Of a DNA stretch of 38,031 nt, positions 6,807 through 37,486 are shown piece by piece; position 1 is the first letter of the stretch; every line of letters starts with the position of its first letter. The notes below the pieces were generated by a model. That model made no database searches. It saw only the letters and a list, made by a program, of their open reading frames with translations, and had not been told where the DNA came from. This DNA is from a virus. A program made the position numbers and the translations under genes. The stretch spans positions 1-38,031 of the IMG/VR virus record IMGVR_UViG_3300025313_000065, one strand, 5' to 3'.

Positions 6807-6836
6807 GGGGGCTTGGATAAGCACGAATTCCCAACC

Positions 6837-6869: not shown

Positions 6870-6889
6870 TAAAGAGGGAATTGGATTCT

Positions 6890-7096: not shown

Positions 7097-7233
7097 GATA
7101 CGCCAACGAGAAACCCATCTGCGAGTTCTGCCACTCCCGCTGTCCGCTCGACTGCTACGGTACTTTGATCTGTTACGAATGCATCCTTAAATTCCTGCGC
7201 GCGCTCACGGAACAAATTGATGAATCTCACTGA
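7093..7233 (+). CDS. Six-cysteine small protein, 46 residues
   Basis: ATG 7093 overlaps the upstream stop. The sequence MRYANEKPICEFCHSRCPLD continues with CYGTLICYECILKFLRALTE. Six Cys at positions 10, 13, 17, 21, 27 and 30 include two CxxC pairs, which suits a zinc-binding fold. The end overlaps the following gene by 14 bases. Tiny zinc proteins of this kind are common near phage terminase genes, but the role is unknown. Confidence 0.55.
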   Translation: MRYANEKPICEFCHSRCPLDCYGTLICYECILKFLRALTEQIDESH

Positions 7234-14332: not shown

Positions 14333-14348
14333 CGGTTTTGAGTTTGTC

Positions 14349-14381
14349 ATCCTGGGATGGGTTCTGTTACCATCCCAGGAT
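14349..14381 (+). other. 12-base perfect hairpin after the capsid gene
   Basis: ATCCTGGGATGG (14349-14360) and CCATCCCAGGAT (14370-14381) pair perfectly around 9 bases. There is no T-run, and GGAGAG for the next gene follows at once. It is better suited to stabilising the capsid mRNA end, or to reducing read-through, than to full termination. Confidence 0.75.
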
Positions 14382-14391
14382 CGGAGAGCAA

Positions 14392-15321
14392 ATGAATACA
14401 CTGGTCACAGGCGGCGCGGGCTTTATCGGCTCGCACATCGCGGATGAGCTTTTGCGCGCGGGGCATAAGGTTATCGTCGTCGACGATCTATCCAACGGTT
14501 ATCGCGAGAACGTTCCCGCCGCGACACAGTTCTACTGTGCCTCAATTCTGGATGAGATAGATGTGCCGACCCTTGCGCGCGATCACCAGATCGACATCAT
14601 CTTCCATCAAGCCGCGCAACCTAGCCTGCGTAGGAGCATCGACGACCCGGAGTTCGATGCGGAAGTCAATATCCTGGGAACTCTGCGAATGATCATGCTG
14701 GCGAAGAAACTCGGCGCGCACTTGGTCTTCGCCTCAACCAGCGCGGTCTATGCACCAGATGCTCGCCCGCCTTTCTTCGAGGACGATGGAGACTATCGAC
14801 CGAACCTGCCTTACGGCATCGCGAAACTAGCCGCAGAAATGTACATCAAGAATTCCGGAGTCAGCTATACCATCCTGCGTTATGGCAATGTCTACGGTCC
14901 GCGCCAAGCCCCGGTTGGCGAGAACCAACTCATTCCTCACTGTATCCGGTTCCTGAACGGTGAGGAGTCAGACTTTGCCATCAATGGCGATGGCGAACAG
15001 ACGCGCGATTTCATCTTCGTCAAAGACATCGCACGGGCAAACTTAAATGTCGGTGGATTGAAGATGCACGGAACATTCAATTGCGGGACTGGGAAGGGAA
15101 CGAGCGTCAATCGAGTGTGCGAGATATTGGCGCAGATCGCGGGCAAGCCGAATGAGTTTCTGCATCGCGCAAGTAAGGTCGGCGAAGCACAGCACAGCGT
15201 CCTCGAAACGCATCGCATCCAGCGCACCGGTTGGCAGCCGCTAACGCGCCTCGAAAATGGATTGAGGCATACCTGGGAATGGCATGTTGGAAACTACGCT
15301 AGAGCAACAGACCTGGCTTGA
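14392..15321 (+). CDS. NAD-dependent nucleotide-sugar epimerase/dehydratase
   Basis: A 309-residue extended SDR enzyme. The NAD-binding motif TGGAGFIGSH lies at residues 6-15. The catalytic set is ASTSAVY (114-120) with Tyr141-x3-Lys145 in PYGIAK. LRYGNVYGPRQAP and an RDFIFVKDIARANL segment mark the sugar-nucleotide-binding half of UDP-glucose epimerase-like enzymes. Substrate could be UDP-glucose, UDP-GlcNAc or a uronate; the sequence does not decide. ATG 14392 has GGAGAG upstream. It is the first gene of a sugar-modification island placed between capsid and head-tail joining genes, and it overlaps the next gene by 38 bases. Confidence 0.9.
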   Translation: MNTLVTGGAGFIGSHIADELLRAGHKVIVVDDLSNGYRENVPAATQFYCASILDEIDVPTLARDHQIDIIFHQAAQPSLRRSIDDPEFDAEVNILGTLRMIMLAKKLGAHLVFASTSAVYAPDARPPFFEDDGDYRPNLPYGIAKLAAEMYIKNSGVSYTILRYGNVYGPRQAPVGENQLIPHCIRFLNGEESDFAINGDGEQTRDFIFVKDIARANLNVGGLKMHGTFNCGTGKGTSVNRVCEILAQIAGKPNEFLHRASKVGEAQHSVLETHRIQRTGWQPLTRLENGLRHTWEWHVGNYARATDLA

Positions 15322-15853
15322 GGGTCTGAAGGAATTCGATGGCGGCAACCGCCTCGCGATTATGGCGGTGTTCGCCGCGTTCGGCGAGCCAGTTTCCTAC
15401 CTCGACGTGGGTTGTGGGACAGGCGCGATGGTCAGGCTCGCACGGCAGCTCGGCATCAAGGCGCACGGGGTCGACCTGTTGCCGAACGATTCGGAATGGA
15501 TTCGTCAACACGATTTGAGCTATCCGTTCGATTGGGGTTGGCAGTTCGATTTGGTTACATCGATTGAAGTTGCGGAACACATTCAACCCGAGTTCGCGAA
15601 CGTGTTTTGCGATACGCTGGCGAAGCACGTCAAGTTAGGTGGGAGGCTCATTCTCACCGCCGCGATTCCTGGCCAGGTCGGATACAATCACTACAACTGC
15701 CAGGAGCCGGAATACTGGCGCGAGCGAATGTTATCACGCGGTCTGCGGTACGCGCAGGCGGAAACGCTGAGACTGGTCGAGATGTGGACACATACGCACA
15801 TGGCGACCCATTGGCTCGAAAAGAATTTGCAGATTTTTCGGCGCGAGGTATGA
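15284..15853 (+). CDS. Class I SAM-dependent methyltransferase
   Basis: A 189-residue Rossmann methyltransferase. Motif I is VSYLDVGCGTG at residues 37-47, followed by the acidic HGVDLL loop, then FDLVTSIEVAEHI and LKLGGRLILTAAIPG-like motifs (here VKLGGRLILTAAIPG). The size and the AEHI motif are those of Methyltransf_11/23 enzymes, many of which act on sugars or small molecules in glycan clusters. Because it is sandwiched between an epimerase and a glycosyltransferase, a sugar O-methyltransferase is a reasonable inference. It is translationally coupled to both neighbours. Confidence 0.85.
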   Translation: MLETTLEQQTWLEGLKEFDGGNRLAIMAVFAAFGEPVSYLDVGCGTGAMVRLARQLGIKAHGVDLLPNDSEWIRQHDLSYPFDWGWQFDLVTSIEVAEHIQPEFANVFCDTLAKHVKLGGRLILTAAIPGQVGYNHYNCQEPEYWRERMLSRGLRYAQAETLRLVEMWTHTHMATHWLEKNLQIFRREV

Positions 15854-16572
15854 TCTATCCTGACTTGACGATTTGCATTCTGACCTGCCGCCGTCCCTGG
15901 TATGCTGCCATGACGCTGAGCGCGTGCAAACAAATTCAGTATGCGGGCAAGGTGAAATTCCACATCGCGGATGGTGGAAGCAATCCGAACGACTTTCAGT
16001 ATTTTCAGAAGATTGCGGACGGGCAGGAATTGACGATTGAGACCGTGGGCAATCCGTCCTGGATGATAAATTCCTGCGCGCATCATGGTGGCGAAATCTG
16101 GGTTATGGCGGTCGATGATATGTGTCCGCGTTTTCCATTCGACATTACACCCGATGTAGATTTGCTACTGACCCATCCCGAAATAGGATGCGTGCGATTC
16201 TCGCGGTTGGCATTCTGGGGAAGCTTGGGAGAAGACCCAGAAACGAGCGCGGACTTGGTAAAATGTGACGGGATGCATTGGTGGCGTATCGACAAAGCCC
16301 GCAGCAAGGATTCCTACATTTGTAGCGTCGGATTTCATCTGTATCATCGGCGATTCTGGGATACGTATGGAGACTTGGAAAAACCGGCGCGCGCGAATGA
16401 GTTGGGACACGCGGAGATGATTGCAGGTGAGCGATTTCGGATGAAGGACGGTCCAACGATTGCCGTACCGATGCGTTTCGGTCAAGACGCCGGCGAGTTT
16501 CGCGAACCGATCTGGCATTTCGGAATCTGGCGCACGGATGAACTGACGAAAGTCGCTCGCTCGCGATTATGA
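15850..16572 (+). CDS. Family 2-like glycosyltransferase (GT-A fold)
   Basis: The chosen ATG 15850 overlaps the previous stop (ATGA) with GAGG upstream, giving 240 residues. DLTICILTCRRPWYAAMTLS at the start is the usual first strand and helix of GT-A enzymes. KFHIADGGS supplies the nucleotide-binding acid. WVMAVDDMC at 84-92 supplies the DxD-like metal site (Asp89-Asp90). The C-terminal half has a LYHRRFWDTYGDLEK segment like the acceptor part of family 2 enzymes. The acceptor and sugar are unknown. Confidence 0.75.
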   Translation: MIYPDLTICILTCRRPWYAAMTLSACKQIQYAGKVKFHIADGGSNPNDFQYFQKIADGQELTIETVGNPSWMINSCAHHGGEIWVMAVDDMCPRFPFDITPDVDLLLTHPEIGCVRFSRLAFWGSLGEDPETSADLVKCDGMHWWRIDKARSKDSYICSVGFHLYHRRFWDTYGDLEKPARANELGHAEMIAGERFRMKDGPTIAVPMRFGQDAGEFREPIWHFGIWRTDELTKVARSRL

Positions 16573-17105
16573 AACTGCATCTATGTTGCGGTGATGTATA
16601 CCTACTCGGTTACGTCAATGTAGATCGAGTGGGCTGTATCGTGAATGGCAACGTCATAGATTATTATCCGACTGACTTGGCACACTATTACCAGAACCGC
16701 ATTATCGGATTTCCGAAAACAAATTTCATTGATGAACAAGTTGACGTAACTCGGTTTCCATGGCCGTGGCTGGATGTAGAAGAAATCGTGATGATTCAGG
16801 CCATCGAGCATTTTACACCAGAAACCGCGCGGCGAATTGTCTCGGAAGCCAGACGAGTTCTAGTTCCAGGCGGGAGATTACTGATTGATTTCCCGGACAT
16901 CGAAATGACTGTGAGACAATTTGCCCAAAGCGATTCAGTAAAATGTATGCGCTATATCTACGGGAGCGAGCGCAATCCACACCTGAATGGTTTCACGCGT
17001 GAGAGTTTCATTGAATTGTTGGGGCAGGGCTGGAACGGAATTGAATTCAGGGAAATTGTTCAGCATGACTATCCAGTAATCGGCTGTGAGGCAATCAGAC
17101 TGTGA
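16569..17105 (+). CDS. SAM-dependent methyltransferase-like protein
   Basis: A 178-residue protein starting MKLHLCCGDVYLLGYVNVDR, which is motif I of the Methyltransf_11 type (usual form LNLGCGxxxLPGYxNVD). Later motifs are EEIVMIQAIEHFTPETARRI and LVPGGRLLIDFPDIE. Such short enzymes occur in glycan and capsule gene groups. One Gly of the G-C-G loop is Cys here (LCCG), which is tolerated in this subgroup. The start overlaps the upstream stop by four bases, and its own stop overlaps the GTG of the next gene. Confidence 0.8.
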   Translation: MKLHLCCGDVYLLGYVNVDRVGCIVNGNVIDYYPTDLAHYYQNRIIGFPKTNFIDEQVDVTRFPWPWLDVEEIVMIQAIEHFTPETARRIVSEARRVLVPGGRLLIDFPDIEMTVRQFAQSDSVKCMRYIYGSERNPHLNGFTRESFIELLGQGWNGIEFREIVQHDYPVIGCEAIRL

Positions 17106-19846
17106 AACTTTTTCTCGAACCGCATTTCACGAAAGAGGACACGGGCGATGGCGGAATCCGCCGTGTGGTCGAGGCGCAGCAGAGATACCTGTTGGAGTTT
17201 GGAGTCGAGCTGGTCGATGATATCGCGCAGGCCGAGATTACGGCGGGACATGGCACATTGCGACCGCTGAAACCCGGCGCGCCGTTCGTTTCCCACTCAC
17301 ACGGGATGTACTGGTCGGATTACAAGTGGTGGAACAGCGAAGAGAATTGGAATCGGCACGTTATCGATACGCTGGTCTGCGCGGACGCTGTGACCGTGCC
17401 GAGCGAATGGGTCAGACTAGCGTATTCCCGTGGGATTCTCAAGGATGTGCGAACGATCCATCACGGCGTCGAGGTTTCCGAGTGGCAGCCGACCCAGGAT
17501 CACGGCGGCTACGTTCTATGGAACAAACCGCGTTACGATGCGGTGAGCGATCCGAACGAGATGTTTCACCTCGCGGAGAGAACGACCGATGTGCAGTTCT
17601 TTTCGACGCTCGGCAACAAGTCCTTCGCGAACGTCAAGACCATCGGACGCTTGCCGTACTCGCAAATGAAACCTTACGTCCAAAACGCCGGCGTTTATCT
17701 CGCGACCGCGCGGGAAACGTTCGGCATCGGCACGCTGGAGGCATTAGCCAGCGGCGTTCCTGTTGCTGGTTGGCGGTACGGCGGTCAGCGCGAAATCATT
17801 CGCGAGGGTGAGACCGGCTATCTCGCGGACTATGGAGACTACGACGCGCTGGCGGATTGCGTTCGCAAATGTTTCGCCGAGCGCAAGCGGCTATCCGAGA
17901 ACGCGCGCGCGGACGTAGAAGCGCGCTGGCAGTGGCGCGATAAGATCGAGCAGTACGCGATGCTCTATGCCGAGGTTCTACGCGGATTTCGCGTTAAGCC
18001 CCAGGTCTCGATTATCGTCACTTGCCACAACCTCGCCAAATATCTCCCGGATGCACTGACTTCCGTTGCGGCGCAATCGTTCACGGATTGGGAATGTCTC
18101 ATGGTGGACGATGCGAGCGCGGATGAGACGCCGAAGGTTGCGAAGGAATGGGCGCGGAAGGACAAACGATTTATTTCCTTGCGCTCTGACGAAAATCTGA
18201 AACTCTCGCGCGCACGCAACTATGGATTCGCTAACTCGAACGGCAAATACATCATCCACCTCGATGCGGACGACCAGTTACCGCTCGACGCGCTCAGGCT
18301 CTTGACCGACGCGCTCGACCGCGATCCGAATTTGCACATCGCCTACGGCTCGCTCGACCTGATTTCCGAGGATGGACAGACGCGGCAAAAGAATCCCTTC
18401 CCAGTTCATTTCAACTATCTCGCGCAAATGGCGCACCTGAATCAGCTACACTACGCCGCGATGCTACGTCGTGAGGTTCTGACCCAGGTCGGCGGCTACC
18501 GCGAGCGGATGTGGCGCGCCGAAGATTCGGAGTTATGGTGTCGCGCGACCTCGTTCGGATTTCGCGCGATGAAAGTCACGGAAGAGACAACGATTCTATG
18601 GCGATTCCGCGCAGATGGTAAGAGCGCAACAGAGCGAAAAACCTATCCAGATATTGACGGTGATTGGACGGCGGATTTCCCCTGGGCGACTGCGCACAAT
18701 GCCCAAGATGGGATGCAACGACTGCGCGCGAATCAGTTGGGGATTCCCAGTAATATCGCAATCCCGTTCGCCGCGCCCGTCGAAAGCCCGAAGGTCTACC
18801 ATCGCGAGAATCCTCTGATTTCGGTTATTATTCCGCTCGGCGAAGGTCACACACGTTACGTGATTGATGCGCTCGATTCGCTCGTCGCACAGACGTTCCA
18901 GAATTGGGAAGCGATTGTGGTCAATGATAGCGGTGAGGAGGTCGAGCGAATCCCCGGCGCGCCGTACGCGCGCATCGTTGCCGCGCCGAAGAAATTGGGC
19001 GCAGGCGGCGCGCGTAACCTCGGATTGAAATATGCTCGCGCGCCGTTCGTCTTTTTCCTCGATGCGGATGATATTCTCAATCCAGATGCGCTGACGCTGA
19101 TGCTCGCCGAATATGCCAAGAACAAAACGAGTTACGTTTACTCGGGTTGGCACGTTGTCAAGCCCGACGGCACGACCCAGGATTTCGACGCGCCGGAGTA
19201 CGACGCGCACGCGTGGTTCAAGCGCGGGCAGCACATCGTCAGCGTGCTGATTGCAACAGAAGACGCACGCGCGATTCAGTTCGACGAGACCATGATCGGC
19301 TTCGAGGATTGGGATTTCTTTTTGCGCTGTGGTACGCAGGGATTCTGCGGTACGCCGCTCAACCGAATTCTCGTCACCTATCGTCATTTCGCCGGGCGGC
19401 GGAGCATCAAGGCGCGCCCGAGCCACGCGGAACTGGTCAAGGAAATAAAGTCCCGTTATCAGGATTTCATCGGAGGAAAGAAGGCTATGACTCCCTGTTG
19501 TGGCGGAAACGTCAAGGCGCGCAATTCGATCCAGGCGGTGAGCGCGAGCGTGTCCGCGTCCCAGGCACAGAAAAATGGTTTTGTGCGGATGCAGTTCATC
19601 GGCACGCGCGCCGCGCCCGTAACGTATTACGCCAATAAACATCCATATTCTGGTGGACTGATGGCCGAGTTCAAATTCGTGGACGCGCTGCCGGAGGATG
19701 TGACGATTCTCGAATCGACTGGGATGTGGCGGCGGGTGCAGGTCGCTCCGCCGGTGATGCCAGTTCCGCTCGCGCCGACTCCGCCGCCTGAGATCGTCAA
19801 GGAAAAAGTCACGGCGATACGCGCGCGAAAAAAGGTTGCGGCGTGA
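17102..19846 (+). CDS. Three-domain glycosyltransferase (GT4-GT2-GT2) with virion-type tail
   Basis: 914 residues from a GTG that overlaps the previous stop. Residues 1-295 are a GT-B enzyme of family 4 with the E-x7-E motif ETFGIGTLEA (Glu205, Glu213). Residues 300-520 are a GT-A family 2 domain: VSIIVTCHNLAKYLPDAL and HLDADD (Asp388, Asp390). Residues 572-790 are a second family 2 domain: ISVIIPLGEGHTRYVIDALD and FLDADD (Asp654, Asp656). All three keep their key acids, so all may be active in successive sugar transfers. The last 119 residues differ: MTPCCGGN, then VRMQFIGTRAAPVTYY and FVDALPEDVTILESTG, resembling small phage head proteins. An internal start there is described separately. 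Confidence 0.85.
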   Translation: MKLFLEPHFTKEDTGDGGIRRVVEAQQRYLLEFGVELVDDIAQAEITAGHGTLRPLKPGAPFVSHSHGMYWSDYKWWNSEENWNRHVIDTLVCADAVTVPSEWVRLAYSRGILKDVRTIHHGVEVSEWQPTQDHGGYVLWNKPRYDAVSDPNEMFHLAERTTDVQFFSTLGNKSFANVKTIGRLPYSQMKPYVQNAGVYLATARETFGIGTLEALASGVPVAGWRYGGQREIIREGETGYLADYGDYDALADCVRKCFAERKRLSENARADVEARWQWRDKIEQYAMLYAEVLRGFRVKPQVSIIVTCHNLAKYLPDALTSVAAQSFTDWECLMVDDASADETPKVAKEWARKDKRFISLRSDENLKLSRARNYGFANSNGKYIIHLDADDQLPLDALRLLTDALDRDPNLHIAYGSLDLISEDGQTRQKNPFPVHFNYLAQMAHLNQLHYAAMLRREVLTQVGGYRERMWRAEDSELWCRATSFGFRAMKVTEETTILWRFRADGKSATERKTYPDIDGDWTADFPWATAHNAQDGMQRLRANQLGIPSNIAIPFAAPVESPKVYHRENPLISVIIPLGEGHTRYVIDALDSLVAQTFQNWEAIVVNDSGEEVERIPGAPYARIVAAPKKLGAGGARNLGLKYARAPFVFFLDADDILNPDALTLMLAEYAKNKTSYVYSGWHVVKPDGTTQDFDAPEYDAHAWFKRGQHIVSVLIATEDARAIQFDETMIGFEDWDFFLRCGTQGFCGTPLNRILVTYRHFAGRRSIKARPSHAELVKEIKSRYQDFIGGKKAMTPCCGGNVKARNSIQAVSASVSASQAQKNGFVRMQFIGTRAAPVTYYANKHPYSGGLMAEFKFVDALPEDVTILESTGMWRRVQVAPPVMPVPLAPTPPPEIVKEKVTAIRARKKVAA
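19487..19846 (+). CDS. Possible internal in-frame gene for a CCGG-type virion protein
   Basis: Inside the large glycosyltransferase gene, in the same frame, ATG 19487 is preceded by GGAGG at 19472-19476 with a 10-base spacer. It would give a 119-residue protein starting MTPCCGGNVKARNSIQ. Small phage structural proteins often begin M-x(1,2)-CCGG and contain an IGxxxxxxxY...YVDxxDxxxL pattern, here FIGTRAAPVTYY and FKFVDALPEDVTIL. The end is Pro-rich and basic. It may be made alone, only as part of the enzyme, or both. Confidence 0.5.
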   Translation: MTPCCGGNVKARNSIQAVSASVSASQAQKNGFVRMQFIGTRAAPVTYYANKHPYSGGLMAEFKFVDALPEDVTILESTGMWRRVQVAPPVMPVPLAPTPPPEIVKEKVTAIRARKKVAA

Positions 19847-25242: not shown

Positions 25243-26724
25243 ATGTCGGAACCATTGAAATCTTCAGAGGGCAGTCTATTCCTGCAACTCTCCCCGGACG
25301 CCGCGCCAGAGTATTTCGGATGCGCCGACCTGGGAGACTTGCCCGCGCCCGTCGGTGACCAGACGCCGATCTACTGTCGCGGCACGGATGGGCTCGCCCG
25401 CATCATCGGCTCGACGCGCGCCGCGCCCGCGCTCGCGACGAGCAATATCACCGCGCTGATGTTCCCGGAATCGGACGTGATCGACCGTCTGAAGAATTGC
25501 ACGTTTGCGCTCTACGCCATGACGCGCAACTGCGGCAAAGCCGGGATTTTCCCGAACTATGTTCGGGGAACTATCGCGCATCATGCCCGTGTGACGAATC
25601 GCAATCGTCAGAACCTCGTCAAGATGGAAACGGATGACAAGGTTTTGCGCGTACTCGACCTGTCCTACTGGGGCATTTACGAGATTCGCGAGATCACGGC
25701 GGTGCGCCAGACGATTGCGGAAACGCGCGCGCTGAATGACATCGTTTTCGACATGCTCGATGAGTGCGCCGGCGACTGCGGTCCAACGGTCGAGCGCGAC
25801 GACAACGGCTTCATTGTCACAGACGGCGGAGTTGCTTCGCCGCCGAGCGATGCGGACGTGTGGCTCACCACGGACAAGGGTTCGACCTGGGCGAACGCGA
25901 CCGGCGCGGTGCCATCACCGTTTACTGGTGGCGACATTCTCTCGGCGGTGCGTTTCCAGGTGGACAAGGATACGTATCGCCTGTTAGTGGCGAGCGGTCA
26001 AAAGGCCGGGAATGCACAAGTCGCGTACTCGGATAACGACGCCGCGACGTGGACGACCGTCACGGTCGGCGCAACGGCCTGGGAAGGCGCGACCCATTCC
26101 GCCGCGCTGTTCGCGCTGGACAAGTCGCACATCTGGTTCGCGACGAGTCACGGCCGCGTGTATTTTTCCAGTGACGGCGGCGCGAGTTGGGCTTCGCAAG
26201 CTAGCGCACTGACGGCGAGCTTGGCGCGTCCGTTGAACGCCGTGTCGTTCTTCGACGTGCTAAACGGTTACGCCGTTGGCAATACGGACACCATCATCAA
26301 GACCATTGACGGCGGCGATAACTGGAGCGCGGTTACGTCCCCATCATCCGCGGACAATCTTTTCGCGCTCGAAACGCTGTCGAAGGACATGCTGATCGTC
26401 GGCGCGAGCGGCGATGGATTGTGGAAATCACTCGACGGCGGCGATACGTGGACGAGCGTCATATTTACCGGCCAGGGAACCACTGGCACGGTGCGCGACG
26501 CGGACTTTGCGCCGGAGAATGAACTGGTCGGGTTTATGATCCACAACACGAGCGCGCCGGTGGGAACGATTCACCGCACCCTCGACGGCGGGATATCCTG
26601 GGAACGCATCACGACCCCGACGAACCTGGGTCTGAATGCGGTTGTAGCAATCGATGAGAATACGGCGTTCGCGGTTGGCGAAGTGCAAGGCGGAACCGGC
26701 GTCGTAATCCGCGTTTCGGGGTAA
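25243..26724 (+). CDS. Tail tube-like protein with C-terminal Asp-box beta-propeller
   Basis: A 493-residue protein with a strong AGAGGAGG site. Residues 1-190 look like a tail tube domain: the position is right, and MTRNCGKAGIFPNYVRGTIA and LDLSYWGIYEIREI fit major tail proteins. Residues 203-493 contain six Asp-boxes: TTDKGSTW (209), SDNDAATW (263), SSDGGASW (309), TIDGGDNW (354), SLDGGDTW (396) and TLDGGISW (446). The regular spacing of about 42 to 55 residues indicates a six-bladed propeller of the sialidase/Ycf48 kind. It would decorate the outside of the tail tube and could bind surface glycans. The sialidase active-site residues are not evident, so binding is likelier than cleavage. 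Confidence 0.7.
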   Translation: MSEPLKSSEGSLFLQLSPDAAPEYFGCADLGDLPAPVGDQTPIYCRGTDGLARIIGSTRAAPALATSNITALMFPESDVIDRLKNCTFALYAMTRNCGKAGIFPNYVRGTIAHHARVTNRNRQNLVKMETDDKVLRVLDLSYWGIYEIREITAVRQTIAETRALNDIVFDMLDECAGDCGPTVERDDNGFIVTDGGVASPPSDADVWLTTDKGSTWANATGAVPSPFTGGDILSAVRFQVDKDTYRLLVASGQKAGNAQVAYSDNDAATWTTVTVGATAWEGATHSAALFALDKSHIWFATSHGRVYFSSDGGASWASQASALTASLARPLNAVSFFDVLNGYAVGNTDTIIKTIDGGDNWSAVTSPSSADNLFALETLSKDMLIVGASGDGLWKSLDGGDTWTSVIFTGQGTTGTVRDADFAPENELVGFMIHNTSAPVGTIHRTLDGGISWERITTPTNLGLNAVVAIDENTAFAVGEVQGGTGVVIRVSG

Positions 26725-27611: not shown

Positions 27612-29915
27612 TTGGCAACCGAACAGATAGGTTTAGAGGCTGTCCTACGGGACGCGGATTTCCAACGCGGACTCGCGGCGTATATACGCGGGGTTGACCA
27701 GGCGACCGGCAAAACCCAGGAAGGCGCGACGGGTATGTCAGTAATGGAGCGCGCCTCCACCGCGCTGGGCTCAGGTCTGTCAACCGTCGCGACGATTGCG
27801 GCGGGCGCGCTAACGGTTGGAATCACGGCGGCGGCAGCGGCGGTTGCTGGCTTTGCTCTTGCTGCAAAGACTGGCTTGGATGTAACAAATTCTATTGCGA
27901 ATGATTTAGATTCGCTTGGAGATAAATTTGGCTTGAACGCGGAGCAAGCCGGCGGTTGGGCGTTCCTGATGAAGCGGGTTGGCTTGACCGTTGAAGAAGG
28001 TTCATCGGGATTCGGTTTTTTTATTCGCGGACTGGATGCCGCTAATGACCGTCTGAAAACTGGCAAAAAAGAGTTGACTCCCTTTGAACAGTCCCTGAAG
28101 AAACTAGGAATCAGTGCTTTTGACACTAAAGGGAATCTGAAAACCTTTGAGCAAGTTCTGCCAGAGATTCAGTCCTCGCTTAAACAAATGAAGGATGGAA
28201 CAGCAAAAAGCGCACTCGAAATGGAATTATTTGGCAAATCGGGTGGTAAGTTCCATGATTTCTTAAATCAAGACATAGATATCAAACAAGCTTTGCAAAT
28301 CGTTGATGAAAAGGGATTGAAGCTAACTGATGAACAGGTCAAAGCGGCGATTGATTTGCAAATCGCGCAACGAGATTTAAGCGCGAGTTTAGAGGGCATT
28401 TGGAATCAAATCGGCATAGCGATTCTGCTGATCCTGAAAGATTTGACAACCGTGATCACGAAGGACATTCTGCCGGCATTTTCAACCTGGGTTAAGGAAC
28501 ATGCGCCCGCGTTGAATCAGGCTCTACGCGATATCGGCAAGTGGATTATCGAAGAAGCGCTACCTGCGCTTATTGATATGGGTCGATGGATTCAGAAAAA
28601 CTTGATACCATTCATTCGCGATATCATTAAGTTAGTGCAGGAGAACTGGCCGAAAATCTCGAAGGCGATTTCCGACGCGTGGAAGATTATCAAGCCGATT
28701 CTGGAAAAGTTAGGTGAATTCCTGTTCGGTCTCATCGATACGCAGAAAAAGACCCAGGCGGACGCGGCGAAGACCTGGAAGCAAATTTCCAAGTTCATTG
28801 AGGATGCATGGAAAATCATCGCGCCGATCCTCATCAAGATTTTCAAGGAATTGGACAAATTCCGAGACGAGGTTCAGCCGAAACTCGCGAAGGCGTGGGA
28901 TAATATCAAAACGAAGATTCAGCAGACCTGGGATTTCATATGGGATAAGATCATCAAGCCCATCGTCACCACGATTCAGAAATTCATTGAAGACCATCAC
29001 GAGGAAATCGAGAAAATCATCGGTGGCGCGTGGAAGCAAATCGAGGGGATATTTACCGTGGCGTGGTCGGCGATTAAAGGCATCGTCAAGGTCGCGCTGG
29101 ATATATTGAGCGGAGATATGGAAGCAGCCGGCGCGGACTGGCAGGAGATGATGAGTGGCATTTGGTCAGGCATTCAACTCATCTTCAGCGGCGCATGGGA
29201 CATTTTGCGGAATACTGTCGTCGCTGGACTAATCGCGATCCTGACCGCGATCTCCAATCAAGCCACAAGTATCCTCAACACGCTGCTCGCGCCGTTCAAC
29301 AACGCGATTGCCGCAATCCAAAATTTGAATTGGTCGGCGGTCGGCACAAGCATTGTCAACGCCATCACGACTGCGCTCAACAACGCGCTGAACGTTGGCG
29401 GTGCGGTGATGAACGCCATCATTAATCTAGTCACTGGGATTCGTGACCAAATTGCCGCGCAGTTCGCGTTTCTGTCACCGAACAATATCCGCGATGCCAT
29501 TGGGTTCGTGATCGGCAACGCAATGAACGCGGCCAGAGACGTTGGCTATTTCCTGTTGCAGGTTTACAACACAGCGGTTGGCATCTTGCAGGCACTAGCA
29601 GATCGTTTGATCATCGCGCCGCTCCAGGCGGTGGTGAACGCGTTCGGTACGATTCTGGCATATGCACTGGACAGCGTATTGCGACCGCTTGGTTTGCAGG
29701 ACTTGAACCCGTGGAAAAACTATCTCCCCGGCGGTGGGCTTTTCCCGTCGCAACTCATGCCGGCATTTGCGGGAGCGGGTGCTGGGAGTTCGTTCGTCAA
29801 TTCCAGCGCGATCACCAACAATTATTACAACCTGAATATCAGTTCGCTCGCGCCGACCTCGACGTTAATTTCCGATTTCGGGATTATGAAGTCGCTCGCG
29901 CAGGGTGGGGGATAG
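27612..29915 (+). CDS. Tape measure protein
   Basis: A 767-residue protein that sets tail length, starting at TTG 27612. The N-terminal part (1-50) is charged, followed by an Ala-rich hydrophobic segment at 56-90 (GALTVGITAAAAAVAGFALA). Residues 95-260 match phage tail tape measure proteins (NSIANDLDSLGDKFGLNAEQ, SALEMELFGKSGGKFHDFL). The centre contains Trp/Pro-marked helical repeats such as AWKIIKPILEKLGEFLF and TWDFIWDKIIKPIV, and the end is Gly/Asn-rich. The usual scale of about 0.15 nm per residue would give a tail near 110 nm. Confidence 0.88.
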   Translation: MATEQIGLEAVLRDADFQRGLAAYIRGVDQATGKTQEGATGMSVMERASTALGSGLSTVATIAAGALTVGITAAAAAVAGFALAAKTGLDVTNSIANDLDSLGDKFGLNAEQAGGWAFLMKRVGLTVEEGSSGFGFFIRGLDAANDRLKTGKKELTPFEQSLKKLGISAFDTKGNLKTFEQVLPEIQSSLKQMKDGTAKSALEMELFGKSGGKFHDFLNQDIDIKQALQIVDEKGLKLTDEQVKAAIDLQIAQRDLSASLEGIWNQIGIAILLILKDLTTVITKDILPAFSTWVKEHAPALNQALRDIGKWIIEEALPALIDMGRWIQKNLIPFIRDIIKLVQENWPKISKAISDAWKIIKPILEKLGEFLFGLIDTQKKTQADAAKTWKQISKFIEDAWKIIAPILIKIFKELDKFRDEVQPKLAKAWDNIKTKIQQTWDFIWDKIIKPIVTTIQKFIEDHHEEIEKIIGGAWKQIEGIFTVAWSAIKGIVKVALDILSGDMEAAGADWQEMMSGIWSGIQLIFSGAWDILRNTVVAGLIAILTAISNQATSILNTLLAPFNNAIAAIQNLNWSAVGTSIVNAITTALNNALNVGGAVMNAIINLVTGIRDQIAAQFAFLSPNNIRDAIGFVIGNAMNAARDVGYFLLQVYNTAVGILQALADRLIIAPLQAVVNAFGTILAYALDSVLRPLGLQDLNPWKNYLPGGGLFPSQLMPAFAGAGAGSSFVNSSAITNNYYNLNISSLAPTSTLISDFGIMKSLAQGGG

Positions 29916-29916
29916 C

Positions 29917-29988
29917 ATGAGGTGGATTTATGCACTGGATCGTTTTCATCCCACTTATCTTTATGGCGGGAAGTGGAACCATGCCTAA
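29917..29988 (+). CDS. Possible 23-residue leader peptide
   Basis: ATG 29917 lies two bases after the tape measure start-stop junction, with GGTGGGGG upstream, and reads MRWIYALDRFHPTYLYGGKW then NHA. Its stop overlaps an ATG at 29981 that is an alternative start of the distal tail gene. It could be a coupling peptide or merely the shadow of the distal tail gene's N-terminal extension. Confidence 0.25.
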   Translation: MRWIYALDRFHPTYLYGGKWNHA

Positions 29989-32140
29989 CCCGACCGTTCA
30001 CAATCCACGCTATGAGATCGTTACGCCGGATGGTTGGACGTTCGAGTTCGCGCCGCCGAATTATGCGGTAGACATCGGGTTCTTCGATGGTGGGGAACTG
30101 CCGCCGATTCAGCATCAGACCCAGGTTTTGTATCGGCAACCTGGCGCACTCTTGCAGAGTATTTCGATTCAGCCGCGCGTGGTGACGATCACGGGCGTAC
30201 TGAACGCGAAAACGCGCACGGAGTTGCACGAGTTGCGGGCGCGCTTGTGGAAGGCATTGCGTTGGAATCGGACGCTGGATGATCCGCCCGCGCCGTCCGT
30301 ATTTCGCTTTATTTTCAACGAACGGGTTCGCGAGTTGAACGTATTTCTGTTGTCCACGACGACCCAGGACGTGGGGACGGAAGAGACGAAACAGAACGCG
30401 GTCGTGCGGCTCGTGGCGTACGATCCGCTGTGGTATGGAGCCGCGGATCAATCCGCCAACCTGGCCACGTATCAGAACCTGAGCGTGGCATATATCGCCG
30501 GGAAGATCAACGGACTATGGAATTCGATGGGCGGCGGGGCAAATGGTGATATTTATACTATGGCGATTGCTCCGAATGGCGATGTATATGTAGGTGGTGC
30601 ATTTACAAGTATCGGTGGCGTAGCAGCAAATAGAATTGCGAAATGGGATGGTAGTACGTGGTCGGCTTTAGCGGCGGGGTTTGCAACAAATGTACTTACA
30701 ATTGCAATCGGGCCAGATGGAAAAGTTTATGCCGGGGGATTAACCAATCGCTTGGACTATTGGGATGGAGCAGCTTGGAATACAACTGGCACTGCTCCGA
30801 ATGGCTCGACACGCGCGCTGGCTGTTCATCCAACTACGGGGGACATTTACGCCGGGGGAACGTTTACCACAATTGGCGGCGTGGGGGCAAACCGAATTGC
30901 TCGCTGGAACGGCAGTGCGTGGTCGGCTCTAGGAACCGGCGGGGCGGACAATGCCGTGAGAGCAATTCTTATAGCAAAAAGTGGAACGCTTTATGCTGGT
31001 GGAGATTTTACCTCGATGGGCGGCGTTGCCAACACGGATGGACTTGCCTCTTGGAATGGGACAACTTGGGCTAGCGTCGGTAATACAAATGCAGTTGATG
31101 TCTATAAGTTTGCAGAGCATCCAGATGGAACCATTTACGCAAGTGGAATCTTTGCAACAATCGGCGGTGTTTCTGCCAACAATATAGCGAAATGGAATGG
31201 TGTTGTTTGGACACCTCTCGGCTCCGGTGTCAACGCAGCTTGTTGGTCTCTGGCTGTTTCTTCGGATGGACTATTGTATGCCGGTGGACTCTTCACTTCT
31301 GCAGGAGGACTTTCGCTGGCTGACCGTGTTGCCGTGTGGAATGGAACAAGTTGGGCTCAGTTGGATATTGATTTTCCGGGTACTCCGCTTGTTTATGCTA
31401 TCGGATTATTCGGTGCGAATCTTTACGTGGGCTTTGACACCACCGGGACAGCAGTTGTATCAAGCCCAACATCCACTGGGATTGACATTGATGGTGATTT
31501 TGAGTCCTTTCCTATTTTCACCCTCACCGGCCCTGGCACATTGCAATGGATCGAGAACACGGACAGCGCGAAAACAATGACGTTCAACCTCTACATCAAT
31601 GCCGGCGAGACCGTCACCATCGACCTGACCGCCGGTAACAAGTCCATCGTGAGTGACTGGCGCGGCAACCTGTTCCCCTACACGCCGCTCATTCCCAGTT
31701 CCGATTTTTCGACGTGGGCGCTGGAACCTGACCCCATCGCGGCGGATGGGCTGAACACAGTCGCGCTCATGATGACTGGCACGACGCCAACGGAAACGAA
31801 TGATAACAACAACCAGTTGAGCGGCTGGTCGAGCATCACCGGCATCACGCCATCCAACACTGACGCCGGCGGAAGAATGTACGCGAACATCATCGACCAA
31901 GGCGGCGGATTCTACAGCGTGAACCTCTACGACGATTCCGCGCGCACGCATCGCGTCGGATACACCGCCAGCTACAACACCAACGGGGCGAAAACCGTTC
32001 TGCCGGATAACGCGAGCGGGCTCGGCGGGACAATCACCGTGGACGCGCGCGTTGCCGCCGATTCCGATATCGTGGTTTTCTTCGCGACCGCGAAAGTAGA
32101 ATGGCGCGACGCGTACTTGAGCATCGACGAGGGAATGTGA
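29930..32140 (+). CDS. Distal tail protein with inserted beta-propeller
   Basis: 736 residues from ATG 29930 (GAGGTGG upstream). Residues 18-190 match the N-terminal ring domain of siphovirus distal tail (Dit) proteins: QPRVVTITGVLNAKTRTELH, RARLWKALRWNRTL and RLVAYDPLWYG. The galectin-like C-terminal part resumes at about 510 (GIDIDGDFESFPIFTLTGPG). Between them, residues 195-505 hold six repeats of the form GGxFTxIGGVxANRIAKWNGxxWSALGxG, a propeller. Residues 600-736 form a further beta domain. The N-terminal 17 residues are hydrophobic and unusual for Dit, so ATG 29981 (MPNPTVHNPRYEIV) may be the true start. It joins tube to baseplate and, through the propeller, may bind the host surface. 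Confidence 0.75.
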   Translation: MHWIVFIPLIFMAGSGTMPNPTVHNPRYEIVTPDGWTFEFAPPNYAVDIGFFDGGELPPIQHQTQVLYRQPGALLQSISIQPRVVTITGVLNAKTRTELHELRARLWKALRWNRTLDDPPAPSVFRFIFNERVRELNVFLLSTTTQDVGTEETKQNAVVRLVAYDPLWYGAADQSANLATYQNLSVAYIAGKINGLWNSMGGGANGDIYTMAIAPNGDVYVGGAFTSIGGVAANRIAKWDGSTWSALAAGFATNVLTIAIGPDGKVYAGGLTNRLDYWDGAAWNTTGTAPNGSTRALAVHPTTGDIYAGGTFTTIGGVGANRIARWNGSAWSALGTGGADNAVRAILIAKSGTLYAGGDFTSMGGVANTDGLASWNGTTWASVGNTNAVDVYKFAEHPDGTIYASGIFATIGGVSANNIAKWNGVVWTPLGSGVNAACWSLAVSSDGLLYAGGLFTSAGGLSLADRVAVWNGTSWAQLDIDFPGTPLVYAIGLFGANLYVGFDTTGTAVVSSPTSTGIDIDGDFESFPIFTLTGPGTLQWIENTDSAKTMTFNLYINAGETVTIDLTAGNKSIVSDWRGNLFPYTPLIPSSDFSTWALEPDPIAADGLNTVALMMTGTTPTETNDNNNQLSGWSSITGITPSNTDAGGRMYANIIDQGGGFYSVNLYDDSARTHRVGYTASYNTNGAKTVLPDNASGLGGTITVDARVAADSDIVVFFATAKVEWRDAYLSIDEGM
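30512..31445 (+). repeat. Propeller-coding repeats inside the distal tail gene
   Basis: Six coding repeats of about 130 to 150 bases. Five carry a recognisable GGxF(T/A)xxGGV and all carry W(D/N)G and a Trp eight or so bases further on. The stretch is distinctly richer in A and T than the sequence on both sides, and its codons end in A or T more often. This fits recent insertion or exchange of the segment. Confidence 0.7.
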
Positions 32141-33313
32141 GTGGGCGCGGAATTTTCCATCTGGTTTCTGCATCCGGCGAACGGGCTGACGATTGCCTTC
32201 ATCGAACAGTTTGCGGAACTGTCCTATACCAAAGTGGTCAACGCCGTAGGCGCGTTCACCCTCAAAGTTCCAGTCAACGCGCTTAAGATTGTACCTCTGG
32301 TGCCTTTCCTGCCGGGAATAACGCTCGAATTCGAGACGGTGATTGAACAGGACACACGCATCGTGATTTGGCGCAAGCCGGCGAACGGCGTACGCGCCAT
32401 CGATTTCGTTGGATTCGTGCGATACGTCGAAAAGAAAGCGGAAAATGACCAGGTCTATTTCGTCATGTCGGGCATGGATTTGAACTATTTGCTGGATTCG
32501 CGCATCGTGGCCTATTTCGCCGGGAGCGCGCAGGCAGACAAGACCGACCAGGCCGACGACATGATGAAAGCGATCGTACGGCAAAACATTGGCTCGGGCG
32601 CGACGGATCTGAACGGTGATACCTCGCGTGATCTTTCGTCGCGAGGGTTGACGGTGCAGGCCGATGTGGGGTTGGGAAATTCCATCAGCAAAGCGTTCGC
32701 GTATCGCAATGTCCTACTCGTTCTACAGGAAATCTCGGACGCAAGCCACGAGACAAGCGAATCGGGTTCCGTTTACTTCGGGATCGTGCCGCTGAATCAA
32801 GGTTGGGAATGTGAATTCAGAACAAACTTGCAGCAATGGGGACTGGATCACCGCTATCCATCCGGCGCAGCGGGCGCGGTCATTTTCTCGTTAGAATTCG
32901 GGGACTTGGCGGACGTATCGCGTTACACGGATTGGCGGCAAGAGACGACCTACGTTTACGCTGGCGGCCAGGGTGAGAATACCTTACGCGATATCCAGGT
33001 CGCGAGCGACACCGGACGCATCGGCGCATCGCCGTTCAATCGCCGTGAGGTTTTCGCCGACGCGCGCAACGTGACGACCAGCGCGCAGGTGCAAGACGCA
33101 GCAGAAGCGGCGTTGCGTGAGGGGCGGCCGCGCAATCTATTCTCCGCAAAATGGGTCGATGCGACGAAAGTTTACGGACGCGATTTTAACTTTGGGGATT
33201 ACATCACGGCGGTTTACCTGGGTGAGACCGTGGATTGTCGAATCGATGCCATCGTGGTGACAGTCGTTGGAAGTGTCGAGCGTGTAGACATTAATTTGCG
33301 GAGTGAGTCTTAA
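32141..33313 (+). CDS. Baseplate hub protein (ReqiPepy6 Gp37-like)
   Basis: 390 residues from GTG 32141, directly after the distal tail stop. FSIWFLHPANGLTIAFIEQF, AVGAFTLKVPVNA, GFVRYVEKKAENDQ and GMDLNYLLDSRIV follow the plan of Gp37-like hub proteins (tail-associated, lysin-like Tal fold without a hydrolase part). The C-terminal half includes RREVFADARNV and YGRDFNFGDYITAVYLGETV, seen in the same family. It likely closes the tail tip. Confidence 0.8.
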   Translation: MGAEFSIWFLHPANGLTIAFIEQFAELSYTKVVNAVGAFTLKVPVNALKIVPLVPFLPGITLEFETVIEQDTRIVIWRKPANGVRAIDFVGFVRYVEKKAENDQVYFVMSGMDLNYLLDSRIVAYFAGSAQADKTDQADDMMKAIVRQNIGSGATDLNGDTSRDLSSRGLTVQADVGLGNSISKAFAYRNVLLVLQEISDASHETSESGSVYFGIVPLNQGWECEFRTNLQQWGLDHRYPSGAAGAVIFSLEFGDLADVSRYTDWRQETTYVYAGGQGENTLRDIQVASDTGRIGASPFNRREVFADARNVTTSAQVQDAAEAALREGRPRNLFSAKWVDATKVYGRDFNFGDYITAVYLGETVDCRIDAIVVTVVGSVERVDINLRSES

Positions 33314-34032: not shown

Positions 34033-34728
34033 ATGAATGAAATGAATGTGGAAATCGACCCGCGCGCAACCTGGATCAAAATTGTGGACAGTGGCTTCGC
34101 GTATGGCTACAAAGTTCGTTATGTGCGCGGTCTCGATCCGACTGAAGGGAAGAATGACGTTCAGGTTTACGTTGGCATCATTGACGAACGAGGCATTCCG
34201 CAGATGGGTCGCCTGATTCATTTCGACACGATGCTATCCGATGGGACTGTAGATATTGTGGATTGGCTGCCGTCGCGTGAAGGCGGCGCGATCCGATTCG
34301 TTCAGGGCAGCAACGCGACGTTTTTCCCGGATGGCTCGCGTCCCGGACGCGAGCGCGGTCCGTACTTCACCTGGGTCGAGCACAAGGGAATTCCGAGCGA
34401 CAAGGTTCTAGGCATTGGCTTGCCGGTCAATTACCACGTATCGTATTACATCCAATTCGTCTACATCTCGCCGCCCGCACAGCCAGTTCCAGGTGAGACG
34501 GTCGAGCAAGCAACAATTCGCGAGGCTAAAGCAAGATCATGGATGCCCATTAACACGGATGGCGCGCTCTACAAGTTCGCGCAGAAGAATGGCTTGGGTT
34601 ATCCGCAGTCGGATGAGTTCGAGTTCCTTGTCGGCTCTGAAGTTTACGTTGGGCAAGTGTATAACCTGGGAATCGTCTACGTGAGGAAAGAGGACTGGGG
34701 CAACGTGCATTGGGTGCAAAAGCCATAG
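34033..34728 (+). CDS. Uncharacterised protein between tail and lysis genes, 231 residues
   Basis: Two parts are visible. Residues 10-150 are beta-rich (WIKIVDSGFAYGYKVRYVRG, GPYFTWVEHKGIPSDKVLGI), like a carbohydrate-binding or Ig-type module. Residues 170-231 include GALYKFAQKNGLGYPQSDEF then YVGQVYNLGIVYVRKEDWGN, resembling modules found beside cell-wall-acting proteins, but no catalytic motif of a known lysin is seen. It could be a tail fibre, a binding protein or an unrecognised lysin. Two ATG starts (34033 and 34042) share one GAGGGG site. Confidence 0.5.
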   Translation: MNEMNVEIDPRATWIKIVDSGFAYGYKVRYVRGLDPTEGKNDVQVYVGIIDERGIPQMGRLIHFDTMLSDGTVDIVDWLPSREGGAIRFVQGSNATFFPDGSRPGRERGPYFTWVEHKGIPSDKVLGIGLPVNYHVSYYIQFVYISPPAQPVPGETVEQATIREAKARSWMPINTDGALYKFAQKNGLGYPQSDEFEFLVGSEVYVGQVYNLGIVYVRKEDWGNVHWVQKP

Positions 34729-34734: not shown

Positions 34735-35358
34735 ATGAAGTCACGTCTCAAGCTCATCGGCAAGATTCCAGAGAGTTTCTACTCCGTTTTGAGTCACATG
34801 ACGGAAATACATGACGACTACTTACATGGACATAGTCAGCATGTATCCAATTTGGCCGTTGCGCTGGGAAAGCGGATCGGATTGCCGAAGGCTCAATTGC
34901 GATTTCTCTGTGCGGGCGCGCTGATTCACGACATTGGCAAGTTGGGCATTCCCGATTCCGTGATTAATAAACCTAGTTCGCTCACGCGCGCGGAACGGGA
35001 GATGATCGAGCGGCATCCCATCATGGGTTACGAACTAATTTCGCCGGTGGTGCATGAGCGTGAGGTACTCGAGATTCTACTTCATCATCACGAGAACTGG
35101 GACGGCACGGGCTACCCGGACAAACTGCGCGACGGTCAGATTCCGCTCGGCGCGCGCATCGTGCGCATTGCGGACACGTTCGATGCGATGACGGCACAGC
35201 GACCCTATCGGCCTGCGTTCACCGCGATTCAGGCGCTCGCGGAGATGCAGGAAGATAAAAGTTACTACGACGCGCGGCTCTTGGGGGAATTTGATCGGAT
35301 GATTCGTGAGCGCAATCATGCCAGGACTACTATTGCGCGCAAAGGCAAACGGTCGTAA
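34735..35358 (+). CDS. HD-GYP domain cyclic-dinucleotide phosphodiesterase
   Basis: A 207-residue stand-alone HD-GYP protein. Metal-binding and signature residues are intact: HGHSQHVSNLA (31-41), LIHDIGK with His65-Asp66, RHPIMGYELI with His94, HHHENWDGTGYPD (117-129) as the GYP signature, and ARIVRIADTFDAMTAQRPYR (140-159). The family hydrolyses cyclic di-GMP; the Vibrio V-cGAP members hydrolyse 3'3'-cGAMP. There is no receiver or sensor domain and no membrane span, so it would act as a free cytoplasmic enzyme. It is the first of the lysis-side genes, after the last tail gene. Phage use could be to change host motility or biofilm state, or to remove a defence signal. Activity and substrate are inferred. 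Confidence 0.9.
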   Translation: MKSRLKLIGKIPESFYSVLSHMTEIHDDYLHGHSQHVSNLAVALGKRIGLPKAQLRFLCAGALIHDIGKLGIPDSVINKPSSLTRAEREMIERHPIMGYELISPVVHEREVLEILLHHHENWDGTGYPDKLRDGQIPLGARIVRIADTFDAMTAQRPYRPAFTAIQALAEMQEDKSYYDARLLGEFDRMIRERNHARTTIARKGKRS

Positions 35359-35361
35359 AAT

Positions 35362-35685
35362 ATGGATGCGTTCTTAATCGCGATTCTCGATAAAGGCGTC
35401 GCGCTGGGCATTCCTGTGCTCGCGGTTGTGTTGTTCCTGTTCACGCGCGAGGTTAATACGCTAACGGTGACGATTGTCAAAGAGTTCGGGGAATTGCAAA
35501 TGGGTATAGAGAAGAATGTCAGCGCGGCATTGCAGCAGTCGTTGCAGAATCAGAATCGGTTGGGTGACCAGCACGAGCGCATGACCGCGCTGTTGACGCA
35601 ACAGACCGTGATTCTGACAATGCTCATTTCAGACCCGGACGCGCGCGGACAAATGGCGAAAAGTTTGCAGGAATTGGAAAAGTGA
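35362..35685 (+). CDS. Small membrane protein with coiled coil, 107 residues
   Basis: One hydrophobic span at about residues 5-28 (IAILDKGVALGIPVLAVVLF), then a Gln-rich soluble helix (VSAALQQSLQNQNRLGDQHE). This arrangement is seen in phage hemolysin XhlA-like and spanin-like lysis accessories. It lies four bases after the HD-GYP gene and before other membrane proteins. Lysis accessory is a position-based guess. Confidence 0.5.
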   Translation: MDAFLIAILDKGVALGIPVLAVVLFLFTREVNTLTVTIVKEFGELQMGIEKNVSAALQQSLQNQNRLGDQHERMTALLTQQTVILTMLISDPDARGQMAKSLQELEK

Positions 35686-35698: not shown

Positions 35699-35956
35699 AT
35701 GGTAAATGATGAGGCGCGCGCGTATCAAGATCGGTCTGGCTTTGTGAGATGGAAAAAGAGAGTTTCCTGGAAAGTGGGTCAGCATATCTGGCGCTTGCTT
35801 TATCCGGTAATTAGGACCGTTTACTTCCGATACCTGTTTCATAGACAAGATGGCAACCGGTGGATTGGAGGAATCAAAGAAGCGTCCTGGACATTTCTAT
35901 GTGGTCATGGCATTATTCATTCTCTCCACATAGGAAACATCTATTGGAAACTTTAG
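35699..35956 (+). CDS. Unknown small protein, 85 residues
   Basis: A basic, Trp- and His-rich protein, starting MVNDEARAYQDRSGFVRWKK and containing ASWTFLCGHGIIHSLHIGNI. No membrane span is certain; one weakly hydrophobic helix lies near the end. It is more AT-rich than its neighbours. I do not recognise a family; its position suggests membership in the lysis-side group. Confidence 0.45.
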   Translation: MVNDEARAYQDRSGFVRWKKRVSWKVGQHIWRLLYPVIRTVYFRYLFHRQDGNRWIGGIKEASWTFLCGHGIIHSLHIGNIYWKL

Positions 35957-35957: not shown

Positions 35958-36770
35958 ATGAATGATATCGCTCTGACACCTCTCTCATTCGTGATTGTCT
36001 ACCTGTGCATTGGCTTGGCGGTGCATCAGTGGCAGCGGGCGCGACGCGTGCTGTTGGCGCGTATTCCGGTGACGATTGTCGTCGAGCGGCGGCGCAATGT
36101 GTGGACGACTAATGCCGCGTTCGCGCTGGTCGGCGCGGGCATCGCGACGATGGTATTCCTGGTCATTCTGCCGTTCTCGGCTGTGACCACGCGTACGCCG
36201 GTCAACGTCATAGTTCCTGGCACGCCGGGAGTTTATCCGACGGAGCATGCGCCAATCTTCTTTGTGGACACGCCCACGCGCGCGCTTGCCACGCTGACTG
36301 TGCCGCCACGGACTGGGACGCCAGTAAGTCGTTTGGTGGTAACTGCGACGATCACACCGACGGCACTGATTCTCGCGACGAACGTACCAGCAGGCAGTAC
36401 GTTACCTTCTACATTCTCGATTGGCGCGCCGCTCGCGACTGTTCCCGCGCTCGCGATTCCCACGTCAGGTGTGATTCCGACGATTCAATTGGCCAAACCA
36501 ACTGAACCGATTGTTCCGACTTCCGTCATAATGCCTACAGTTCAATTGGCAGCTCCGACTCCAGTCCCACCAACGCCGATTCCCGCGACCGCGATTCCGC
36601 CGACTGCAAAACCGCCAACAGCAATACCGGCAACGGTCAAGCCGCCGACCGCGGTCCCAGCAACGTCTGTTCCGCCTACTTCAGTCCCGGCAACCTCCGC
36701 GCCGCCTCAACCGCCGCCGGTGCAACCGACACAGCCGAAGGGCGGGCATGTGGGTGGGGCGTATCCATGA
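35958..36770 (+). CDS. Membrane-anchored Pro/Thr-rich protein, 270 residues
   Basis: Two hydrophobic spans (residues 7-24, 50-75) are separated by a basic loop (RRVLLARIPVTIVVERRRNV). About 190 residues follow that are dominated by Pro, Thr, Ala and Val and lack Cys. The last 60 form a degenerate repeat, PPTAxPAT/PPTSVPAT. Such tails span cell walls in bacteria and are common in Chloroflexota proteins. The topology, a short anchor and a long extended outer part, would suit a spanin-like or envelope-bound role. The stop overlaps the next ATG (ATGA). Confidence 0.55.
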   Translation: MNDIALTPLSFVIVYLCIGLAVHQWQRARRVLLARIPVTIVVERRRNVWTTNAAFALVGAGIATMVFLVILPFSAVTTRTPVNVIVPGTPGVYPTEHAPIFFVDTPTRALATLTVPPRTGTPVSRLVVTATITPTALILATNVPAGSTLPSTFSIGAPLATVPALAIPTSGVIPTIQLAKPTEPIVPTSVIMPTVQLAAPTPVPPTPIPATAIPPTAKPPTAIPATVKPPTAVPATSVPPTSVPATSAPPQPPPVQPTQPKGGHVGGAYP

Positions 36771-36925
36771 CCACGCTCTATATGGTAGTTCTGTTTCTCG
36801 CGGGGTTCCTATCGGTGCTGGCGTTTCGGAGTGAGCCAGACTGGAGGATGAAGATTGTGTTGGGATTCTGCGCGGCGATGGCGGGACTGATATTCGTTGC
36901 GTTCGCGTTGAGAATTTTGAGATGA
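36767..36925 (+). CDS. Two-span holin-like microprotein, 52 residues
   Basis: The protein is MTTLYMVVLFLAGFLSVLAF, a short charged loop RSEPDWRMK, then IVLGFCAAMAGLIFVAFALR. Two membrane spans in 52 residues with charged ends fit a class II-type small holin. The start overlaps the Pro/Thr-rich gene. The assignment rests on topology and place. Confidence 0.5.
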   Translation: MTTLYMVVLFLAGFLSVLAFRSEPDWRMKIVLGFCAAMAGLIFVAFALRILR

Positions 36926-37087: not shown

Positions 37088-37486
37088 ATGGAATTACTCA
37101 CACAATTGTTCGGTCAGTTGCCGGGTCTGGTTGGATTCGCCGCGCTGTTCGTGGTGGTCAACAACATCGGCAAACTACGAGGCATCGTCACACCAGAGAA
37201 CGAGCCGCTGATTCAGGCGGGCGAAAGTCTGTTGCTTCTGGTCGCGTTGTATGTGACGCAGGTGCTGAATATGCCTACGCTCATCCCGGGATTCGATCCG
37301 AAGGCCGCGTATCTCGCGACCGCCATCGGCGCGATTCTGCAATTCCTGACGCAGTTCGGCGCACTGAAATTGGGTCACGCTATCGTACGCGGCGTGCCGT
37401 ACGTCGGTGCATCGTTCGAGTTTACGCGCGAGGTCAAAGAAATCAATCCGCAGGCCAAGTTGCTGGGGATGCCGAACGTAAGATGA
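37088..37486 (+). CDS. Holin-like membrane protein, 132 residues
   Basis: Three hydrophobic stretches, about 8-26 (FGQLPGLVGFAALFVVVNNI), 43-62 (AGESLLLLVALYVTQVLN) and 73-95 (AAYLATAIGAILQFLTQFGA), and a charged C-terminus match the layout of class I phage holins. TAAGGAG precedes the ATG at good distance. It is the last gene of the plus-strand operon, ahead of a terminator. It is the best holin candidate in the window, but no sequence motif proves it. Confidence 0.55.
   Translation: MELLTQLFGQLPGLVGFAALFVVVNNIGKLRGIVTPENEPLIQAGESLLLLVALYVTQVLNMPTLIPGFDPKAAYLATAIGAILQFLTQFGALKLGHAIVRGVPYVGASFEFTREVKEINPQAKLLGMPNVR

Follow-up and report, generated by a model that had tools for sequence, protein, structure and literature searches.

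The 38,031-nt window analysed here, an IMG/VR viral record from a tailed phage, carries a stand-alone HD-GYP protein (34735–35358, plus strand) at the end of its tail module, next to holin-like and other membrane genes. The product is predicted to be an active phosphodiesterase with a dinuclear-type metal site. Our preferred reading, in which we place about even confidence, is that this enzyme would be made late in infection, would linearise c-di-GMP before lysis and would thereby ease lysis or virion release. The evidence for it, read from sequence, consists of the predicted active site and fold, the place of the gene in the cassette, the repeated recruitment of such enzymes to the same place in other phages and, in one clade, purifying selection.

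The ORF begins with an ATG codon preceded by tagaggtaaATG (agaggtaa) and encodes 207 amino acids. The Pfam profile HD_5 (PF13487) extends over residues 18–182 (E value 7e-44; 150 bits, cut-off 27.2), and the top sequence matches in the PDB are V-cGAP3 (PDB: 5z7c; E value 6.6e-31) and PmGH (PDB: 4mcw; E value 1.2e-28). These values put the HD-GYP assignment far beyond chance; no PHROG family matched the protein. The primary structure includes His65-Asp66, HHHENWDGTGYPD at positions 117–129 and IADTFDAMTAQRPYR at positions 145–159, as well as the metal ligands H33, H65, D66, H94, H118, H119 and D147. The sequence HHExxDGxGYP is present, with GYP at residues 126–128. The first-pass annotation had described a complete HD-GYP protein with no sensor domain, and both points are confirmed: all of the motifs that it named are present together with the metal ligands and a fold matching known HD-GYPs, and HD_5 takes up residues 18–182 of a chain of only 207. 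The trinuclear subclass of HD-GYPs is distinguished by an eighth ligand, a Glu residue (reviewed in PMC8177086). In alignments, Tyr29 of the window protein replaces this Glu (E185 of PmGH), which leaves the protein outside the trinuclear subclass, and a dinuclear-type site is therefore expected.

An AlphaFold2 model of the protein, made with 14 phage relatives (pLDDT 92.2; pTM 0.88), is closest among solved structures to PmGH (PDB: 4MCW; VIA Z 24.4), DvhD (PDB: 9RBZ; 23.7) and PA4781 (PDB: 4R8Z; 23.5), followed by Bd1817 (19.5), V-cGAP3 (PDB: 5Z7C; 18.7), PgpH (14.8) and other HD folds (about 12 or less). The results from Foldseek are concordant with this ranking. Eight contacts with c-di-GMP have been reported in the canonical site of DvhD (PMC13090378), and these map by alignment as Y523-Y29, L577-L83, K582-R88, Y621-Y127, M646-M152, R650-R156, Y652-Y158 and E668-D174, the window residue being identical or a conservative replacement at every position. 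The mapping appears to fit c-di-GMP but is not proof, since the last position varies across the relatives and DvhD also binds 3'3'-cGAMP, more weakly than c-di-GMP (PMC13090378). D174, the guanine-contacting acid, varies among the HD-GYPs compared, so the sequence does not single out c-di-GMP, in agreement with the earlier statement that the substrate cannot be told from the sequence. A Gln residue has been implicated in the cGAMP preference of PmxA and is not conserved in the V-cGAPs (PMC8177086); no readable determinant of cGAMP preference was found in the window HD-GYP sequence. The main substrate is most likely c-di-GMP.

The genes of the phage include those for the terminase large subunit (7700–9094), the portal (9244–11106), the tape measure (27612–29915) and a Gp37-like minor tail protein (Sipho_Gp37/phrog_538; 32141–33313), the last of which locates the cassette to the end of the tail module. 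From there on, the genes considered are all on the plus strand. A 231-aa protein (34033–34728; pLDDT 37 in a single-sequence fold) is encoded directly upstream of the HD-GYP gene, with 6 bases between its stop and the HD-GYP start. Three bases after the HD-GYP stop follows the gene for a 107-aa partner (35362–35685) with an N-terminal TM helix (residues 8–26) and then a coiled coil, an architecture referred to here as TM-CC. This coiled coil is predicted to be cytoplasmic, and the charges after the helix are ambiguous (two basic and two acidic residues). The partner matched no family in Pfam, PHROG or NCBIfam, BhlA/UviB/XhlA included, and had no match in the viral contigs searched with it. The same gene run continues with an 85-aa ORF (35699–35956), a membrane protein whose TM helices are N-terminal and whose long tail is rich in Thr and Pro (35958–36770), a 52-aa protein with two TM helices whose gene overlaps the preceding one (36767–36925), and a holin-like multi-TM protein (37088–37486). 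The last is homologous (E value 3.6e-6) to a holin-like protein whose gene adjoins the HD-GYP gene of another phage locus, L012. The earlier claim that the HD-GYP gene lies next to lysis genes thus stands for holin-like and membrane genes (35362–35685 and 37088–37486) but not for an endolysin, none being recognised among the window proteins tested. The gene order suggests that the HD-GYP protein would be expressed late.

Other parts of the window have features of their own. A sugar-related island (14338–19846) inside the structural block, right after the gene that follows a ChaB-domain protein, encodes a nucleotide-sugar epimerase, methyltransferase-like ORFs and a 914-aa multi-domain glycosyltransferase. 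The C-terminal half of a structural-region protein (25243–26724) matches Sortilin-Vps10/BNR repeats, and a propeller-like tail-region protein (29930–32140) contains many repeats of the type YAGGxFTxxGGVxANxIAKWNGxxW.

Scans of viral contigs, in which a first set of loci was gathered through similarity to HD-GYP, using patterns that lean towards HHHENWDG-like motifs, revealed further stand-alone phage HD-GYPs of about 190–215 aa that share 30–45% identity with the window protein. The best cellular matches measured were nearly all long multidomain proteins. Of 17 phage loci with a stand-alone HD-GYP, 16 have a TM-CC gene abutting or overlapping the HD-GYP gene (the window, L002–L007, L012, L017, L020, L021, L025, L029 and L055–L057; the exception is L026/L027), the IMG/VR contigs possibly being fragments. 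Usually the TM-CC gene is the downstream one, in many cases with an overlap of 4 bases; in L012 it is upstream. The partners are about 105–185 aa long, with a coiled coil and a single TM helix at the N- or C-terminus, as called from hydropathy and composition, and they form several sequence families that look unrelated, so that the feature they have in common is the architecture. In nearly all of 14 partners, the coiled coil is predicted to be cytoplasmic from the basic residues that adjoin the TM helix. Assignment of the partner as an Rz-type spanin was rejected, because the flanking charges place the coiled coil in the cytoplasm. In a mechanical count over 16 loci, nine of 325 genes were of the TM-CC type and eight of these nine were directly downstream of the HD-GYP gene (binomial p about 4e-9), a value which is indicative only, since the class was defined after examples had been seen. 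Holin-like multi-TM genes and endolysins (GH25, M23) are found near the HD-GYP gene in many loci; a GH25 lysozyme comes directly after it in L026/L027 and after the TM-CC partner in L017, and an M23 peptidase comes directly after it in L012. The claim of a stand-alone HD-GYP protein in the late or lysis region of a phage is strengthened by the recurrence of this position in many distinct phages, with at least three origins, while its wording "late-expressed" draws on gene order.

Upstream of the HD-GYP gene of L006, a GH25 lysozyme is fused to a NAGPA phosphodiester glycosidase domain (5360–7231). HD-GYPs from jumbo or T4-like contexts (L041, L047, L049, L059 and L060) and from L014 were not lysis-linked and served only as outgroups. 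In L014 (5878–7510), likely prophage-flanking host DNA, the stand-alone HD-GYP gene is followed by one that by eye looks to be of the PilZ/YcgR type. Three faecal GenBank records named "Bacteriophage sp." (L160, MT835525; L162, MT835472; L163, MT835719) were left out, as the surroundings of their HD-GYP genes look bacterial.

In a reciprocal test, three partner families were employed as the sole queries, and this gave six further loci in which the upstream DNA was readable. An HD-GYP gene was directly upstream of TM-CC in four of them, with the architecture REC-HD-GYP in L147 and L158, PAS-HD-GYP in L152 and stand-alone in L151; profiles support REC in L147 and PAS in L152, and L158 has response-regulator matches. 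In the other two, TM-CC is kept without HD-GYP and the slot holds a small unrelated ORF (L156, 3741–4004, 87 aa; L157, 3253–3480, 75 aa), which indicates that HD-GYP is an accessory and not an essential part of lysis. The partner-first loci thus indicate that TM-CC is a lysis-cassette gene independently of HD-GYP, which is a frequent accessory before it. An obligate HD-GYP/TM-CC pair was rejected, given the two loci with TM-CC alone and the recombination at the junction that unlinks the genes.

This recombination is visible in several pairs of loci. The DNA of L151 and L152 is 95% identical exactly from the start of the partner on, yet their HD-GYPs have unrelated architectures; the same junction pattern is seen in L057 and L147. 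Conversely, L029 and L057 have only the HD-GYP in common, and the HD-GYPs of L055 and L056 are 97% identical, their partners 61%. HD-GYP and TM-CC are thus recombined at their junction in both directions. The tree requires lysis-linked HD-GYPs to have arisen independently at least three times: in a clade of seven (support 100/100), in the group with the window HD-GYP (95/91), and in REC/PAS-linked HD-GYPs within a Chloroflexota clade (100/99) that share 58–60% identity with cellular proteins. The catalytic residues H..HD..H..H..D and GYP are conserved in all 21 lysis-linked HD-GYPs, and the position of His119 holds His in 19 and Gln in two. Among five close relatives, all in the clade of seven, dN/dS is 0.08–0.14. 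Repeated capture together with purifying selection points to an activity that is useful in the lysis-linked position.

For three relatives, host capture from Chloroflexota is suggested, and phages of this kind probably infect members of that phylum. A TerL search in Chloroflexota genomes gave matches in four of 301 at about 33% identity, too weak for a host call. Partner searches in 400 Chloroflexota genomes found no prophage for two families and one weak match for the third (L164; E value 1e-4), a result that says little because the search lacked a positive control. In a sample of Chloroflexota genomes, the GGDEF domain, associated with c-di-GMP, was found in 102 of 121, often in many copies per genome, and a SMODS cyclase, which represents one CD-NTase family only, in 9 of 121.

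In the proposed mechanism, the HD-GYP protein would be made from the late tail-to-lysis gene run, beside the membrane-anchored coiled-coil protein, and would linearise the c-di-GMP of the infected cell a short time before it lyses. Adhesion, polysaccharide or envelope programmes that depend on c-di-GMP would collapse with its loss, and this collapse might ease lysis or virion release, to the benefit of the phage.

The anti-CBASS function that the first-pass annotation had offered as a second possibility is less favoured. The enzyme would in that case degrade 3'3'-cGAMP or another CBASS-type nucleotide once late proteins are sensed, a function that we judge unlikely. Its closest PDB sequence match is indeed a cGAMP phosphodiesterase, V-cGAP3, some HD-GYPs cleave c-di-GMP as well as 3'3'-cGAMP (PMC8177086), and HD-GYPs of jumbo phages have been predicted to act against nucleotide-based defence (PMC7824862). 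However, in the comparison of folds V-cGAP3 scores lower (Z 18.7) than the c-di-GMP HD-GYPs (23.5–24.4), and some relatives in the same slot that group with cellular HD-GYPs of Chloroflexota have intact-looking REC or PAS domains, which are more in keeping with signalling enzymes than with a tool dedicated to counter-defence. In addition, few of the sampled genomes of the inferred host phylum have a SMODS cyclase, which represents one CD-NTase family only. The REC/PAS-linked relatives and the GGDEF and SMODS counts together favour c-di-GMP removal over an anti-CBASS function.

Distinctly unlikely, in our estimation, is a timer in which HD-GYP and TM-CC jointly gate the holin according to the cyclic-dinucleotide level or, in some phages, to REC/PAS input. 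The tight and often overlapping pairing, the predicted cytoplasmic coiled coil and the finding that one TM-CC gene can be preceded by HD-GYPs of differing architecture would agree with such a device, and for phage VP882 on surfaces the outcome, lysis or lysogeny, is reported to change with the c-di-GMP level (PMC11315295). Yet the pair is unspecific, its members being swapped at the junction both ways, and TM-CC also occurs without HD-GYP. We find it improbable that the HD-GYPs are hitchhiking morons which land at a tolerated tail/lysis insertion point and have no lysis-related role. That L156 and L157 have other small ORFs in the slot and that the module is exchanged as a cassette would be in line with this, but one enzyme class has been captured at least three times in the same place with its catalytic residues kept and a dN/dS of about 0.1, and the partner-first searches gave four of six, although the first set came from HD-GYP searching. 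It is very improbable that the window protein only binds, for example as a sponge for nucleotides, or that it has another specificity, for example as a phosphohydrolase acting on a different substrate. Although HD-fold proteins are chemically diverse (PMC8177086) and DvhD is an HD-GYP that binds without cleaving (PMC13090378), the window protein keeps all of the HD and HH ligands that DvhD has lost, and HD folds not acting on cyclic dinucleotides score far lower (Z about 12 or less).

Second-messenger chemistry is tied here to phage lysis by comparative evidence and not by one gene, and this evidence suggests that phages gain something from removing a cyclic-dinucleotide signal late in infection. 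If late c-di-GMP removal is correct, probable Chloroflexota phages manipulate c-di-GMP at the moment of release. A wider proposal, which we hold to be unlikely, is that a cyclic-dinucleotide-controlled lysis module has been built repeatedly, the holin/endolysin slot taking bare, REC- or PAS-HD-GYPs beside TM-CC; the second-messenger state would then have a part in the timing or the manner of lysis. The module's small size would allow it to be studied in a laboratory strain.

Phage HD-GYPs are already known, and a recurrent role in lysis cassettes was not found described; a search of open-access full texts found no HD-GYP linked to a lysis cassette, its one match being, by title and abstract, a review on signalling in agriculture, and the passages of PMC7824862 consulted describe no such location for the jumbo-phage enzymes. 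The window protein resembles PmGH of Persephonella marina and PA4781 in fold, metal-ligand set and GYP loop, with about 30% identity. Those c-di-GMP phosphodiesterases are, however, multidomain cellular proteins assigned to the trinuclear clade, whereas the window protein is a bare phage domain with Tyr29. V-cGAP3, the 3'3'-cGAMP phosphodiesterase of Vibrio cholerae, shares the HD-GYP motif and is the best PDB sequence match, but has a 463-residue chain with two HD regions and a lower structural score. The HD-GYP of Microcystis phage MaAM05, one of the jumbo-phage enzymes, is likewise phage-encoded, but by a longer gene (1389 bp) without lysis neighbours. Lysis proteins of the BhlA/UviB or XhlA type have one TM helix and a cytoplasmic coiled coil and occur with a holin and an endolysin. 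The TM-CC partners resemble them in architecture only, that is, in the single TM helix, the predicted cytoplasmic coiled coil and the location near holin and endolysin genes.
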